Below, one piece after another: positions 23,014-26,911 of a stretch of DNA of 47,295 bases; position 1 is the first letter of the stretch, and each line of letters begins with the position of its first letter. Under the pieces are notes generated by a model. The model saw nothing but the letters and a program-made list of their open reading frames with translations, ran no database searches and was not told the DNA's origin. Source of the stretch: Bacteroidales bacterium (lineage in GTDB: Bacteria > Bacteroidota > Bacteroidia > Bacteroidales > UBA932); NCBI GenBank assembly GCA_012728975.1, contig JAAYDZ010000047.1, positions 1 through 47,295 of the forward strand, given 5' to 3'. The position numbers and the translations under genes were made by a program.

Positions 23014-24168
23014 ATGTTAACTCAGATTATCAACGGTATTATCCACACTCCCTCAGGATGGCTCAAAGATGGTTCCATCATCATTAGTGATAACAAGATT
23101 CTGGAAGTTTCAAATTGCGACCGGCCTGTAGTCGGTGCTAAAATAATTGATGCAAAAGGGATGTACATCACTCCCGGTGGTATCGAACTCCATTGTCACG
23201 GTGGAGGCGGCCGCGACTTTATGGAAGGGACAGAAGAGGCTTTCAGAACAGCGGTGGCTACACATATGCAGCATGGCACCACCAGTATTTATCCGACACT
23301 TTCTTCCTCCAGTATGCCTATGATCAGGGCTGCTGTAGCCACTACCGAACAATTGATGGCAGAGAAGAATAGTCCGGTGCTGGGACTGCATCTCGAGGGG
23401 CATTATTTCAATATGAAAATGGCCGGAGGTCAGATTCCTGAGTACATCAAGGATCCAGATCCCAGCGAGTATATTCCACTATTGGAAGAGACCAAATGTA
23501 TCAAACGTTGGGACGCAGCACCGGAACTCCCCGGAGCCACTGCATTTGGCCGTTACATCACCAGAAAGGGGGTATTGGCCTCTATAGGCCACACCGCCGC
23601 CGAATACCACGAGGTGCTGGAGGCATATGAAGCCGGCTTCAGCCACGCCACACACTTCTACAATGCTATGCCGGGGTTTCACAGAAAAAATGAATATAAA
23701 TACGAAGGTACGGTAGAGAGCATCTACCTAATAGACGATATGACGGTTGAGGTGATCGGTGATGGCATCCATGTGCCTGCTACCATTCTTAAACTCATTT
23801 ACAAGATTAAGGGGGTGGAGAAGACAGCTCTGATCACCGATGCTCTTGCTTGTGCGGCTAGCGATAGTCAGGAGGCTTTCGATCCCCGTGTGATCATTGA
23901 GGATGGAGTTTGCAAACTCGCGGATCGCTCTGCCCTGGCCGGCTCCATTGCTACAATGGATCGTGTAATAAAGGCAGTAACCACTCAGGCCTTAATCCCC
24001 CTATTTGACGTAATTAGGATGATTTCTGAGACTCCTGCCCTTATAATGGGTATTCAAGATAGGAAAGGCTCACTCCGGAAGGGCAAAGATGCGGACATAT
24101 TGCTCATCGATAAGAACTATGACCTCTGCGGAGTGATTGCTATGGGTAAAATCATAAAACCCATCTAA
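23014..24168 (+). CDS. nagA: N-acetylglucosamine-6-phosphate deacetylase
   Basis: 384 residues, usual length for NagA, an amidohydrolase-fold enzyme that turns GlcNAc-6-phosphate into glucosamine-6-phosphate plus acetate during amino-sugar use and cell-wall recycling. All expected catalytic positions are present: H60 and H62 (ELHCHGGGG), E128 (GLHLEGH), H193 (SIGHT), H214 (HATHFYNAM), H253 (DGIHVP) and catalytic D276 (LITDALA). It is the first of two tandem related genes, 27 bases before the degenerate copy, and sits behind the G-depleted leader. No nagB lies nearby. Confidence 0.95.
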   Translation: MLTQIINGIIHTPSGWLKDGSIIISDNKILEVSNCDRPVVGAKIIDAKGMYITPGGIELHCHGGGGRDFMEGTEEAFRTAVATHMQHGTTSIYPTLSSSSMPMIRAAVATTEQLMAEKNSPVLGLHLEGHYFNMKMAGGQIPEYIKDPDPSEYIPLLEETKCIKRWDAAPELPGATAFGRYITRKGVLASIGHTAAEYHEVLEAYEAGFSHATHFYNAMPGFHRKNEYKYEGTVESIYLIDDMTVEVIGDGIHVPATILKLIYKIKGVEKTALITDALACAASDSQEAFDPRVIIEDGVCKLADRSALAGSIATMDRVIKAVTTQALIPLFDVIRMISETPALIMGIQDRKGSLRKGKDADILLIDKNYDLCGVIAMGKIIKPI

Positions 24169-24195
24169 TAACACCACAATTCAAATCACCGAACT

Positions 24196-25341
24196 ATGAA
24201 TTTTATACAGATATTCAACGGAAAGATCCTCACTCCACAGGGTTGGATCGATAGTGGCTCCCTGTTAATCAATGAAGGCCGTATTCTCGCCATTACAGGT
24301 AGTAACCTTCCTTTGGAAAATGCCGAACTTGTAGATGCCACTGGACGCTATGTCATTCCCGGGTATGTGGCAATGAATATCTACGGAGCAGCGGGCTACC
24401 AGTTTCATGATGGCACTGAAGAGGCTTTTAATGCCATAATCAATGCCCATTTGGCTCACGGTACTACTACTATATTCCCAACTGTGGGTACGGTAGGTTA
24501 TGAGAAACTGGTCGCAACAGGGAAACTATGTTCTAAATTGATGGAAGACGGCAACCGAATCATCGGAGGTCTGCACATTGTAGGCCCCTATCTGAGCTCT
24601 GAAATCACAAAAGGTAGATACGAGGTAAAACCCCCCGATCGCAAAATATACGAAAGCATTGTAAGCGAACTTCCCTGTATCAGGCGCTGGGATGCAGCAC
24701 CGGAGCTTCCGGGTGCTTGCGATTTTGCCCGTTTTCTTACAGAAAAAGGGATCCTGGCAGCTATTTCACATACTATGGCGGAGTACGAGGATGTTAAAGC
24801 GGGATTTGATGCAGGATTTACTCATGCTGCACAGTTATACAACTCTATGCCCGGATTTCACAAACGCCGTGAATATAAATATGAGGGTACTGTGGAGAGC
24901 GTTTTGCTGATAGATGGGATGACCACTGAGGTAATTGCGGATTGTGTCCATCTACCTGCAACCATTCTGCGTCTTGTATACAAGCTCAAAGGCGCCAGCA
25001 GGACTGCATTGGTGACTGCCGCACTTCGTTATGCTGCCTACGAGGGTAAAGAACTTGCTTTCTCCAAGGTCTATATAGACAATGGCGTTTGTAAATTCAA
25101 ATCCGACGATACTGTCGCCGGAGGGATTTCTACAATGGACCAGTTAGTCAGAAATATGGTAATCAGGGCTGATGTGCCCTTTGAAGATGCGGTCAGAATG
25201 GCATCGGAAACTCCGGCAAGAATAATGAATGTCATCGACCGTGTAGGCACTCTTGAAAAGGGAAAAGATGCTGATATACTTATGCTTGATAAGCAGTACA
25301 ACATTACCTCCGTGTGGAGCAAAGGTGTCAGGATTTTTTAA
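24196..25341 (+). CDS. NagA paralogue with degraded active site (probable pseudoenzyme)
   Basis: 381 residues, collinear with the preceding NagA and sharing long blocks such as RRWDAAPELPGA and EYKYEGTVES. The frame is intact. Compared with its neighbour, the HxH metal motif is N61 and Y63 (AMNIYGAAG), the metal Glu is V129 (GLHIVGP), one metal His is Q213 (HAAQLYNSM) and the catalytic Asp is A275 (LVTAALR). H192 and H252 remain. Classical deacetylase chemistry is therefore unlikely. It may regulate or partner NagA, bind a sugar phosphate, or have a new activity. Its last 14 bases overlap the convergent DNA-binding gene. Confidence 0.85.
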   Translation: MNFIQIFNGKILTPQGWIDSGSLLINEGRILAITGSNLPLENAELVDATGRYVIPGYVAMNIYGAAGYQFHDGTEEAFNAIINAHLAHGTTTIFPTVGTVGYEKLVATGKLCSKLMEDGNRIIGGLHIVGPYLSSEITKGRYEVKPPDRKIYESIVSELPCIRRWDAAPELPGACDFARFLTEKGILAAISHTMAEYEDVKAGFDAGFTHAAQLYNSMPGFHKRREYKYEGTVESVLLIDGMTTEVIADCVHLPATILRLVYKLKGASRTALVTAALRYAAYEGKELAFSKVYIDNGVCKFKSDDTVAGGISTMDQLVRNMVIRADVPFEDAVRMASETPARIMNVIDRVGTLEKGKDADILMLDKQYNITSVWSKGVRIF

Positions 25342-26911
25342 GTGGGGTTTTCAGTGCAAGATATCTCACTCCATCTTTGTCGGAAAAAACAAATGAACCT
25401 TTACGATCAAGCTGAAGGTTTGATACGATAGAGCTTCTGTTGGTGGTCGGTCTGAATTGTAATACATACTCCACGACATCCGAAACCGGAGCCATCATAC
25501 CTGGTTGCGATTTTAGGTATTCCCTTACGAAAAGACGTATGGTGCCACCTCTACGGGCACCCTTTTTCCACTCTTTGAGAGTATATCGGCCTGTACGTCC
25601 AATGGCTATGATGGCGGGCGAACGAAGTACATTGCCCGAAATAAACTTCTTTTTTTTCTTTTCGTCCGGATGGAGACGATTGTATTCTTTCAGTATCTCT
25701 TCTGCTGTCATCGGCTGTCCCTTTGCTCGTATTATTTCTTCCAATATTTTGGGAACCTGTTTTTTGACTGTAGCGGGGAAGAGAATCATATTATCCTGTA
25801 CAACGAGACGGAGTGAAGCAAACACATCCTTTGCCGCTGTACGGAGAGGATCGCGGGGATTGGGATTGATCAGTCCGGCGTTGAGGTAGGCTTCTGCTGC
25901 TTCTGCACCTGCCACGATATTGTATTTTATGGCTGTCGCGCAGGCGGTTATGATATCTTTTTTATAATGCTCGTAATATCGGTTTATTCGACATTCGGAA
26001 GCAAGTTTCTCAATGGGAACTTTCTCTACTTCGTCCCGGCGCTCAAGCGCGGTCAGTTCCACTGATTTTAGAAAAAGACCAAAGTCGAAGCATTTGGCCA
26101 GCTTGGCCGGCACTAAAGTGGTCCTTGAAAAACGGTCATTTTTCATCATAAGAGAGTCGCGCACATTCCCGACAATGACAATTTCGCGGTCGAGTATGGC
26201 TAAACCCATATTGACAATACTGCGGCTAAAATTGGTGCCCTCAGCTTTATTGATATCGTGATGTACTTTGGCAGAACGCCAGCGATAAGGACATCTGCGA
26301 TAACCCCTGGGAGTCTTGATCAGTTTAGTCATCATCCCTAGGTAATCGTTTATTCGGCTGATAATATCCAGCATCATCTGACGCACACGTTCTATGGAAA
26401 CACCAAGTTCCTCCGCAACCTCCAAACGGCTTAAAGGCATCTTGCCATCATAGATTAGCAGCAGGGAGTTCAGAACTTTGAGGTCCCTTTCGTCAAATGT
26501 GTTGATGAATTCTTTCAGAGTGGCGAAAACAGGAAAATAGCCAATTTTTTCCCTAAGGTTAAATATTCTGAGGATCGTTTCACTTTCCAGCATCGGAATA
26601 TCATGGACCAGACTTCGTTCATTATCTCTGGGCAGTCGGCTACGCACTTGTGCGATGATTTCCATTACATTGCGGGTAGTCTTGACACCGCAATTTCGCC
26701 AGGAAAGAATCTCTTTTCTTTTCAGAGAGAGAAATTTGTTGAAAAATTCACGGTCATTTTTGAAATTACGGCGGTAGTTGCCGATTACATTCCGTGTGCG
26801 CGTATTGTACTGAAGTAGAAGGGACTCGAAAGCGTAGATTGTACGTTCGATATTTTTTTCATCAATTTTATCCCTGGGATTCCAAAAGAGATTTGACTCG
26901 TATTTTGACAT
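25328..26911 (-). CDS. Putative DNA-binding protein with sigma region 4-like HTH and HARE-like domains
   Basis: 527 residues, no name known to me. Residues about 60-92 (ILSWRNCGVKTTRNVMEI) resemble the helix-hairpin-helix of the RNA polymerase alpha C-terminal domain. Residues about 138-190 match sigma-70 region 4: LEVAEELGVSIERVRQMM carries the GVSxERVRQ signature of primary sigma factors. The region from about 395 onward (PMTAEEILKEY and a later VSDVVEYVLQF block) looks like two winged-helix units of the HARE-HTH type. No region 2 is present, so it is not a sigma factor. It is basic and probably a DNA- or polymerase-binding factor. Its end overlaps the NagA paralogue by 14 bases. Confidence 0.7.
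   Translation of the reverse strand: MSKYESNLFWNPRDKIDEKNIERTIYAFESLLLQYNTRTRNVIGNYRRNFKNDREFFNKFLSLKRKEILSWRNCGVKTTRNVMEIIAQVRSRLPRDNERSLVHDIPMLESETILRIFNLREKIGYFPVFATLKEFINTFDERDLKVLNSLLLIYDGKMPLSRLEVAEELGVSIERVRQMMLDIISRINDYLGMMTKLIKTPRGYRRCPYRWRSAKVHHDINKAEGTNFSRSIVNMGLAILDREIVIVGNVRDSLMMKNDRFSRTTLVPAKLAKCFDFGLFLKSVELTALERRDEVEKVPIEKLASECRINRYYEHYKKDIITACATAIKYNIVAGAEAAEAYLNAGLINPNPRDPLRTAAKDVFASLRLVVQDNMILFPATVKKQVPKILEEIIRAKGQPMTAEEILKEYNRLHPDEKKKKKFISGNVLRSPAIIAIGRTGRYTLKEWKKGARRGGTIRLFVREYLKSQPGMMAPVSDVVEYVLQFRPTTNRSSIVSNLQLDRKGSFVFSDKDGVRYLALKTPLKKS

Follow-up and report, generated by a model that had tools for sequence, protein, structure and literature searches.

A catalytically erased NagA paralogue kept in tandem with an intact NagA in Bacteroidales: a candidate loop-donating partner subunit

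Why should a bacterium keep, directly beside an intact gene for the GlcNAc-6-phosphate deacetylase NagA, a second copy from which the catalytic residues have been erased? The question is raised by a window of 47,295 nucleotides, the whole stretch of DNA analysed here, which is part of a 1.83 Mb assembly of 76 contigs and carries two nagA genes arranged head to tail whose products are 46% identical (Table 1). Their short spacing is consistent with a single transcript; nagB is separate from the pair and lies elsewhere in the assembly (C1:27473-28249). A search of the assembly with NagA2 at an E value of 0.001 returned no match besides the two tandem genes, and the closest named relative of NagA2, at 97% identity, comes from a Bacteroidales metagenome assembly. 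The matches of both proteins to NagA models extend over the full length; NagA1 scores above the TIGR00221 cut-off of 225.65 bits, and NagA2 just below it, at 223.4. A preliminary description of the locus proposed that NagA2 is under selection for a non-catalytic role and offered three candidates, namely a partner in a NagA heteromer, a sensor of GlcNAc-6-phosphate (GlcNAc-6-P) and an enzyme with a new chemistry. We put at roughly 0.55 the probability that NagA2 is the non-catalytic subunit of a NagA1-NagA2 heterodimer, in which it would donate a loop to the active site of NagA1.

Table 1. Features of the nagA1-nagA2 locus, in window coordinates
Feature	Coordinates	Strand	Basis
nagA1, GlcNAc-6-phosphate deacetylase with full binuclear-type active site (H60, H62, E128, H193, H214, D276)	23014..24168	+	TIGR00221 259.4 bits and residues
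NagA1 residues 218-237, aligned with the M. smegmatis cross-subunit loop	23665..23724	+	alignment
Spacer between nagA1 and nagA2, 27 bases (second TAA plus 24 bases)	24169..24195	+	sequence
nagA2, NagA paralogue of 381 aa with its catalytic residues erased	24196..25341	+	residue comparison, AlphaFold2 model
N61-I-Y63, replacing the HxH metal motif	24376..24384	+	alignment
V129, replacing metal ligand E128	24580..24582	+	alignment
Q213, replacing metal ligand H214	24832..24834	+	alignment
NagA2 residues 217-236 including K223-R224, the most conserved 20-residue segment in dead NagA2	24844..24903	+	alignment, conservation scan
A275, replacing catalytic base D276; the change in inactive M. smegmatis NagA D267A (PDB 6fv4)	25018..25020	+	alignment

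Positions are numbered as in NagA1 unless marked NagA2. The five substitutions of the preliminary description are borne out by the aligned residues (H60 to N61, H62 to Y63, E128 to V129, H214 to Q213 and D276 to A275, from NagA1 to NagA2), and it was equally right about the retention of H192 and H252 in NagA2, the conserved blocks that it quoted and the reading frame, which is open from end to end. The beta-site ligands E128, H193 and H214 thus read V, H and Q in the NagA2 of the window, with H193 alone retained. All six catalytic positions are intact in 78 of 78 NagA1 rows, a count from which one of 79 initial rows was excluded as a misplaced NagA2 piece (G602, in which position 58 is missing); in this fragment position 276 is A and the remaining catalytic positions are gaps. 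The NagA2 forms that we term dead make up 22 rows, including genomes counted twice, and reduce to 15 unique full-length sequences. Of 196 positions invariant in 18 NagA1 of the window's family, 138 keep their consensus in these 15, and five of the six metal and catalytic positions are lost (P about 0.009 for losses placed at random over the 196).

Loss of H60 and H62 alone is not proof of inactivity, because E. coli-type NagA carries QxN at the HxH position and an M. marinum NagA changed from HxH to QxN keeps part of its activity (kcat 6.6 vs 36.8 per second, with a higher Km), according to the accessible text of PMC6016474. The same text reports zero activity for the AxA, E127A and D272A mutants of M. 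marinum NagA, and describes M. smegmatis NagA D267A as inactive with GlcNAc-6-P still bound. By analogy with these mutants, E128V, H214Q and D276A together would be the inactivating losses, and we infer that NagA2 is catalytically dead. M. smegmatis D267A and E. coli NagA D273N (2p53) have the same changes as the natural D276A and D276N forms of NagA2; they are, however, single mutants made in the laboratory, whereas NagA2 has lost metal ligands too.

The protein nevertheless remains recognisably a NagA. It shares with the deacetylase its predicted fold, its length without any added domain, the cross-subunit loop, the sugar-binding positions N217 and H253 and the ligand H193, and it differs in lacking E128, H214, D276 and the HxH motif and in falling just short of the family cut-off. 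The AlphaFold2 monomer model of NagA2 is confident (pLDDT 91.2, pTM 0.91), and when it was used to search the PDB, ranks 1 to 33 were all NagA structures, human AMDHD2 included (TMq 0.80-0.93). Residues 218-228 form the sole stretch of three or more residues with pLDDT below 50 (residues 221-230, pLDDT 44). Such disorder in a modelled monomer would fit a segment that becomes ordered only on contact with a partner, other causes being possible as well. A fused model, in which the two genes were read as one chain through the TAA stops with 14 other in-frame pairs as rows (15 rows only), was too poor to use (pLDDT 55.2, pTM 0.34).

The searches covered samples of larger groups, with 199 genomes from the family of the window, 393 from its order and 395 from its phylum, followed by selected genera and families. 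Far from being limited to one strain, the tandem turns up in three Bacteroidales families among the genomes covered. Within the window's own family (f1) it is present in 6 of 40 genomes of genus g1, together with one NagA2 fragment, in all three genomes of g12 and in 8 of 39 of g4, one of them partial. Among the matches listed, 32 of 38 genomes of genus g129 in family f105 carry it; we take this genus to be, probably, Parabacteroides, a common gut genus. Family f59 has the tandem in 9 of 201 genomes and NagA2 unlinked in three. NagA2 was absent from 33 of the 40 g1 and 31 of the 39 g4 genomes, many of which are incomplete assemblies, so that absence is weak evidence. At 52 of 55 loci, all selected for holding NagA2, the gene lies next to nagA1 with a spacer of 2-145 bases; the three unlinked copies are all catalytically intact. 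Fusion of the pair in frame, or read-through of the stop, is ruled out as a biological feature, the two genes being in frame in 28 of the 52 pairs and out of frame in 24.

The preliminary description asked whether the same five substitutions recur in other tandem pairs. They do not recur everywhere, and are the end of a graded series in which many relatives carry one, two or none. NagA2 is intact in 19 rows (16 tandem and the three unlinked); 12 rows have H60N only, and another 12 have lost H214 in addition to H60N, one of these also carrying H193Q. The window's copy belongs to the dead end of the series, whose 15 unique sequences all come from f1 and have E128 replaced by V or A, H214 by Q or N and D276 by A, C or N, with D276 still in place in G140. 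Judging by the residues that they keep (E128, H193, H214 and D276), the H60N-only forms may well be active as mononuclear enzymes. The sole NagA2 row in which H193 is lost (to Q), at locus L108 (G673), has also lost H60 and H214 and keeps E128 and D276; it may represent a different erosion route. A NagA2 fragment at L172/L181 (G931) has D rather than N at position 60 (DYVHQA), which is unique among the rows compared.

Phylogenetic trees place all NagA2 in one clade, with SH-aLRT support of 99 when all columns are used and of 100 when the six catalytic columns are removed. The starting set comprised 147 rows, three fragments shorter than 370 aa and identical rows having been left out; the all-column tree holds 126 of these, without 19 genomes with a distant NagA and two extra g129 paralogues, and the tree lacking the catalytic columns holds 103 rows with a chosen NagA1 subset. 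A distant NagA at L021 (G118) has a single TAG stop in an otherwise open frame. Taken at face value, the best tree without catalytic columns requires a minimum of 3 changes at H60, 4 at H214, 3 at E128 and 3 at D276. Constraining all rows that lost H60, all that lost H214 or all dead rows to group together is not rejected (p-AU 0.478, 0.513 and 0.611, respectively), and the constrained trees for the H214-lost and for the dead rows score better than the best tree, leaving repeated independent losses unsupported. Most dead forms shift between the two trees, standing beside the H214Q forms with all columns and beside intact ones with the catalytic columns removed, and both trees carry long-branch warnings. 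A single one-way series in the order H60, H214, E128 and D276 would fit, and, because the grouped rows are not rejected, a nested ladder accounts for the trees equally well; parallel loss is possible.

NagA2 is clearly constrained. Its dN/dS is 0.033-0.125 (Nei-Gojobori, 16 informative pairs), beside 0.006-0.082 for NagA1 (15 pairs), all of these being rough ratios owing to high dS, with pS of about 0.5-0.7 in most of the 17 pairs. One pair (G603/G135) is identical and hence uninformative, and another (G484/G639) has no NagA1 value. The window compared with G592 gives 0.125 in NagA2 and 0.082 in NagA1, the latter from a partial sequence. On these estimates NagA2 is under purifying selection, and the proposal of selection for a non-catalytic role is supported by them and by the occurrence of the pair in three families; the three specific roles fare differently, as set out below. 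The barrel of NagA2 evolves at about twice the rate of NagA1 (0.356 vs 0.169, f1). At L062 (G592) the contig end truncates nagA1, and three in-frame stops lie within the first bases of the gene, which may reflect an error at the assembly edge and not decay.

The part of NagA2 that has changed least aligns with a loop that crosses between subunits in a known relative. In NagA of M. smegmatis one subunit extends a long, flexible loop to its neighbour, where Arg219 contacts the phosphate in the opposing monomer's pocket; the adjacent Arg220 is conserved and points away from the ligand in the structure, and R225A, the equivalent change in M. marinum NagA, leaves less than 5% of the activity (PMC6016474, accessible text). 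Arg219-Arg220 align with R224/K225 of NagA1 and with K223/R224 of NagA2. A conservation scan of non-identical rows longer than 360 aa places the start of the most conserved 20-residue segment of the 15 unique dead NagA2 at NagA1 position 218. Segment 218-237 ranks first of 274 barrel segments in the dead NagA2, with a mean pairwise difference of 0.079 vs 0.356 for the barrel, and likewise in the eroding (0.000 vs 0.229) and the intact tandem NagA2 (0.012 vs 0.282), where ties are with overlapping segments only. The same segment ranks 40 in NagA1 paired with dead NagA2, 12 in NagA1 paired with eroding and 100 in NagA1 paired with intact NagA2, and 27 in unpaired NagA1, ranks that depend on the segment's edges (in NagA1 paired with dead NagA2, starts at 211-217 score better than 218). 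The ranking by group uses the same length and identity filter and also leaves out the divergent g129 row G668 and most rows of other families, and the unpaired group includes the NagA1-type genes of G783 and G870, which hold unlinked NagA2. The loop of NagA1 shows no extra relaxation where the gene is paired: its ratio is 0.55 in paired f1 lineages and 0.52 in unpaired NagA1.

Synonymous differences in the three tandem NagA2 groups are 0.50, 0.50 and 0.52 in the loop vs 0.55, 0.52 and 0.58 elsewhere; synonymous sites in the loop therefore vary normally and the constraint acts on the protein. Gene conversion or conserved DNA behind the loop's conservation is accordingly unsupported. Identity between nagA1 and nagA2 within vs between genomes is 0.820 vs 0.766 in the loop and 0.642 vs 0.606 outside it (53 pairs), a small excess of comparable size in both parts.

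A partner in a heteromer is the role that we favour among the three offered, given that no part of NagA2 is better kept than the cross-subunit loop, and it is with NagA1 that we infer NagA2 to pair. The accessible text of PMC12409433 describes the dimer as the minimal active NagA assembly and mentions other dimer arrangements for the V. cholerae and B. subtilis enzymes. With those arrangements differing and Arg220 pointing away from the ligand, the role assigned to the loop of NagA2 rests on alignment. In the sequence of events that we envisage, tandem duplication would have come first, after which NagA1 would have kept catalysis and NagA2 the part that completes its partner's active site. The loop of NagA2, through K223/R224, would hold the phosphate of GlcNAc-6-P in the active site of NagA1, the pocket of NagA2 would be free from catalysis and erode in the order H60, H214, E128, D276, and the resulting enzyme would have one working site per dimer. 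One crystal NagA dimer held GlcNAc-6-P in one of its two sites (PMC6016474, accessible text), which by analogy is a hint towards such a one-site enzyme. Against the heterodimer it must be said that conservation of the loop is equally expected in a NagA2 homodimer. The broader view that NagA, a central metabolic enzyme, has here been split into one chain for catalysis and one dead chain that donates a loop, a homodimer with two sites having become a heterodimer with one, and that almost every step is still alive in one clade, is one to which we give a little under even odds.

Pseudoenzymes are common, but series of living pseudoenzyme intermediates are, to our knowledge, rare. Here a single tandem paralogue survives in versions that are intact, short of one ligand, short of two ligands and dead, and the order in which catalysis was given up and a partner role gained is thus testable on living pairs. 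If the heterodimer is real, the second nagA of these genomes, which scores near the NagA model, would have to be left out when enzymes are counted, and NagA1 may depend on NagA2.

NagA2 might instead act as a homodimer or as a free protein that binds GlcNAc-6-P, serving as a sensor, buffer or regulator and keeping hold of the ligand uncut; we regard this as unlikely, if the most credible of the alternatives. Binding by NagA2 is possible, because N217 and H253 are mostly kept in the dead rows (20 and 22 of 22, respectively, with basic residues at 224/225 in all 22). The dead mycobacterial mutants, D267A included, still bind GlcNAc-6-P (PMC6016474, accessible text), and a 2026 paper, citing other work, states in its accessible part that this ligand may allosterically activate NagB (PMC13046382). 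Several positions that alignment places near the pocket are nevertheless altered in dead copies (G138K, Q140F/R, A218S, I252, S283Y/F and, in one sequence, N217T), which weakens the sensor idea; NagA2, moreover, has gained no domain, and a sensor would need no adjacency to nagA1. Residual weak deacetylase activity in NagA2, or activity on a different N-acetyl sugar phosphate, is improbable: the H60N-only forms keep the other ligands and the base, but the window's form has lost two beta-site ligands together with the base, and the single mutants E127A, D272A and D267A are already inactive (PMC6016474, accessible text). We give as little credence to a new metal-free activity or a different ligand. 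The fast evolution of the barrel under purifying selection would suit it, as would the retention of H193 and H253 in all 22 dead rows, but no new conserved constellation is apparent (position 276 is A, C, N or D and position 128 is V or A) and it is the cross-subunit loop, not the pocket, that is best conserved. New chemistry, the third of the roles first suggested, is therefore unlikely, two of the three beta-site ligands and the general base having gone without conserved replacement. A decaying duplicate without present function, suggested by the doubled barrel rate and by the absence of NagA2 from many relatives, is very improbable given the open frames of the full-length copies listed, dN/dS of 0.03-0.13, a nearly invariant loop and a tandem found, among the matches listed, in three f1 genera and most g129 genomes, and confinement of such decay to a single strain is disfavoured on the same grounds.

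Dead amidohydrolase paralogues that serve as partner subunits or domains are already known, and the heterodimer proposed here would be a further case by analogy. An inactive dihydroorotase is required to assemble the aspartate transcarbamoylase of Pseudomonas putida, as stated by a 1995 title in the reference list of PMC4581275, whose accessible text also places an inactive dihydroorotase in fungal CAD-like proteins. The P. putida protein resembles NagA2 as a dead paralogue of the amidohydrolase superfamily kept as a partner subunit, but it partners a different enzyme, whereas the partner that we propose for NagA2 is its own active paralogue. The gene for the P. putida protein is named pyrC'. 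Caulobacter crescentus and Stenotrophomonas maltophilia likewise have two NagA per genome, but these pairs, unlike ours, are described as functionally redundant in the accessible parts of PMC13046382 and PMC13055268, the Caulobacter genes lying in two separate clusters and being 75% identical. Among the matches listed in literature on nagA, paralogues and Parabacteroides, which covered few subscription papers, there was no NagA pseudoenzyme.

The surroundings of the pair differ between the f1 genera fetched, the window and G125 sharing theirs; across f1 it is therefore the pair, not the neighbourhood, that is kept. The g129 loci L143-L147, all with an H60-lost NagA2, run from an ABC-F gene through nagA1 and nagA2 to a GlcN-6-P deaminase-like gene of about 665 aa, the families of these neighbours having been assigned on L143 only. 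At L143 (G651) the pair stands between the gene for an ABC-F type ATPase and that for a two-domain protein with GlcN-6-P isomerase and PIG-L type deacetylase domains. L148, the sixth paired g129 locus fetched, which has an intact NagA2, is without the ABC-F and deaminase-like neighbours, and L149 and L161, with a single nagA, have the same neighbours without nagA2. In the window, nagA2 is followed by a convergent gene for a 527-aa protein (25328-26911, minus strand) that overlaps its end by 14 bases. This protein matches no Pfam family above cut-off and has only a weak match to sigma-70 region 4; a homologue of it adjoins the nagA pair in G125.
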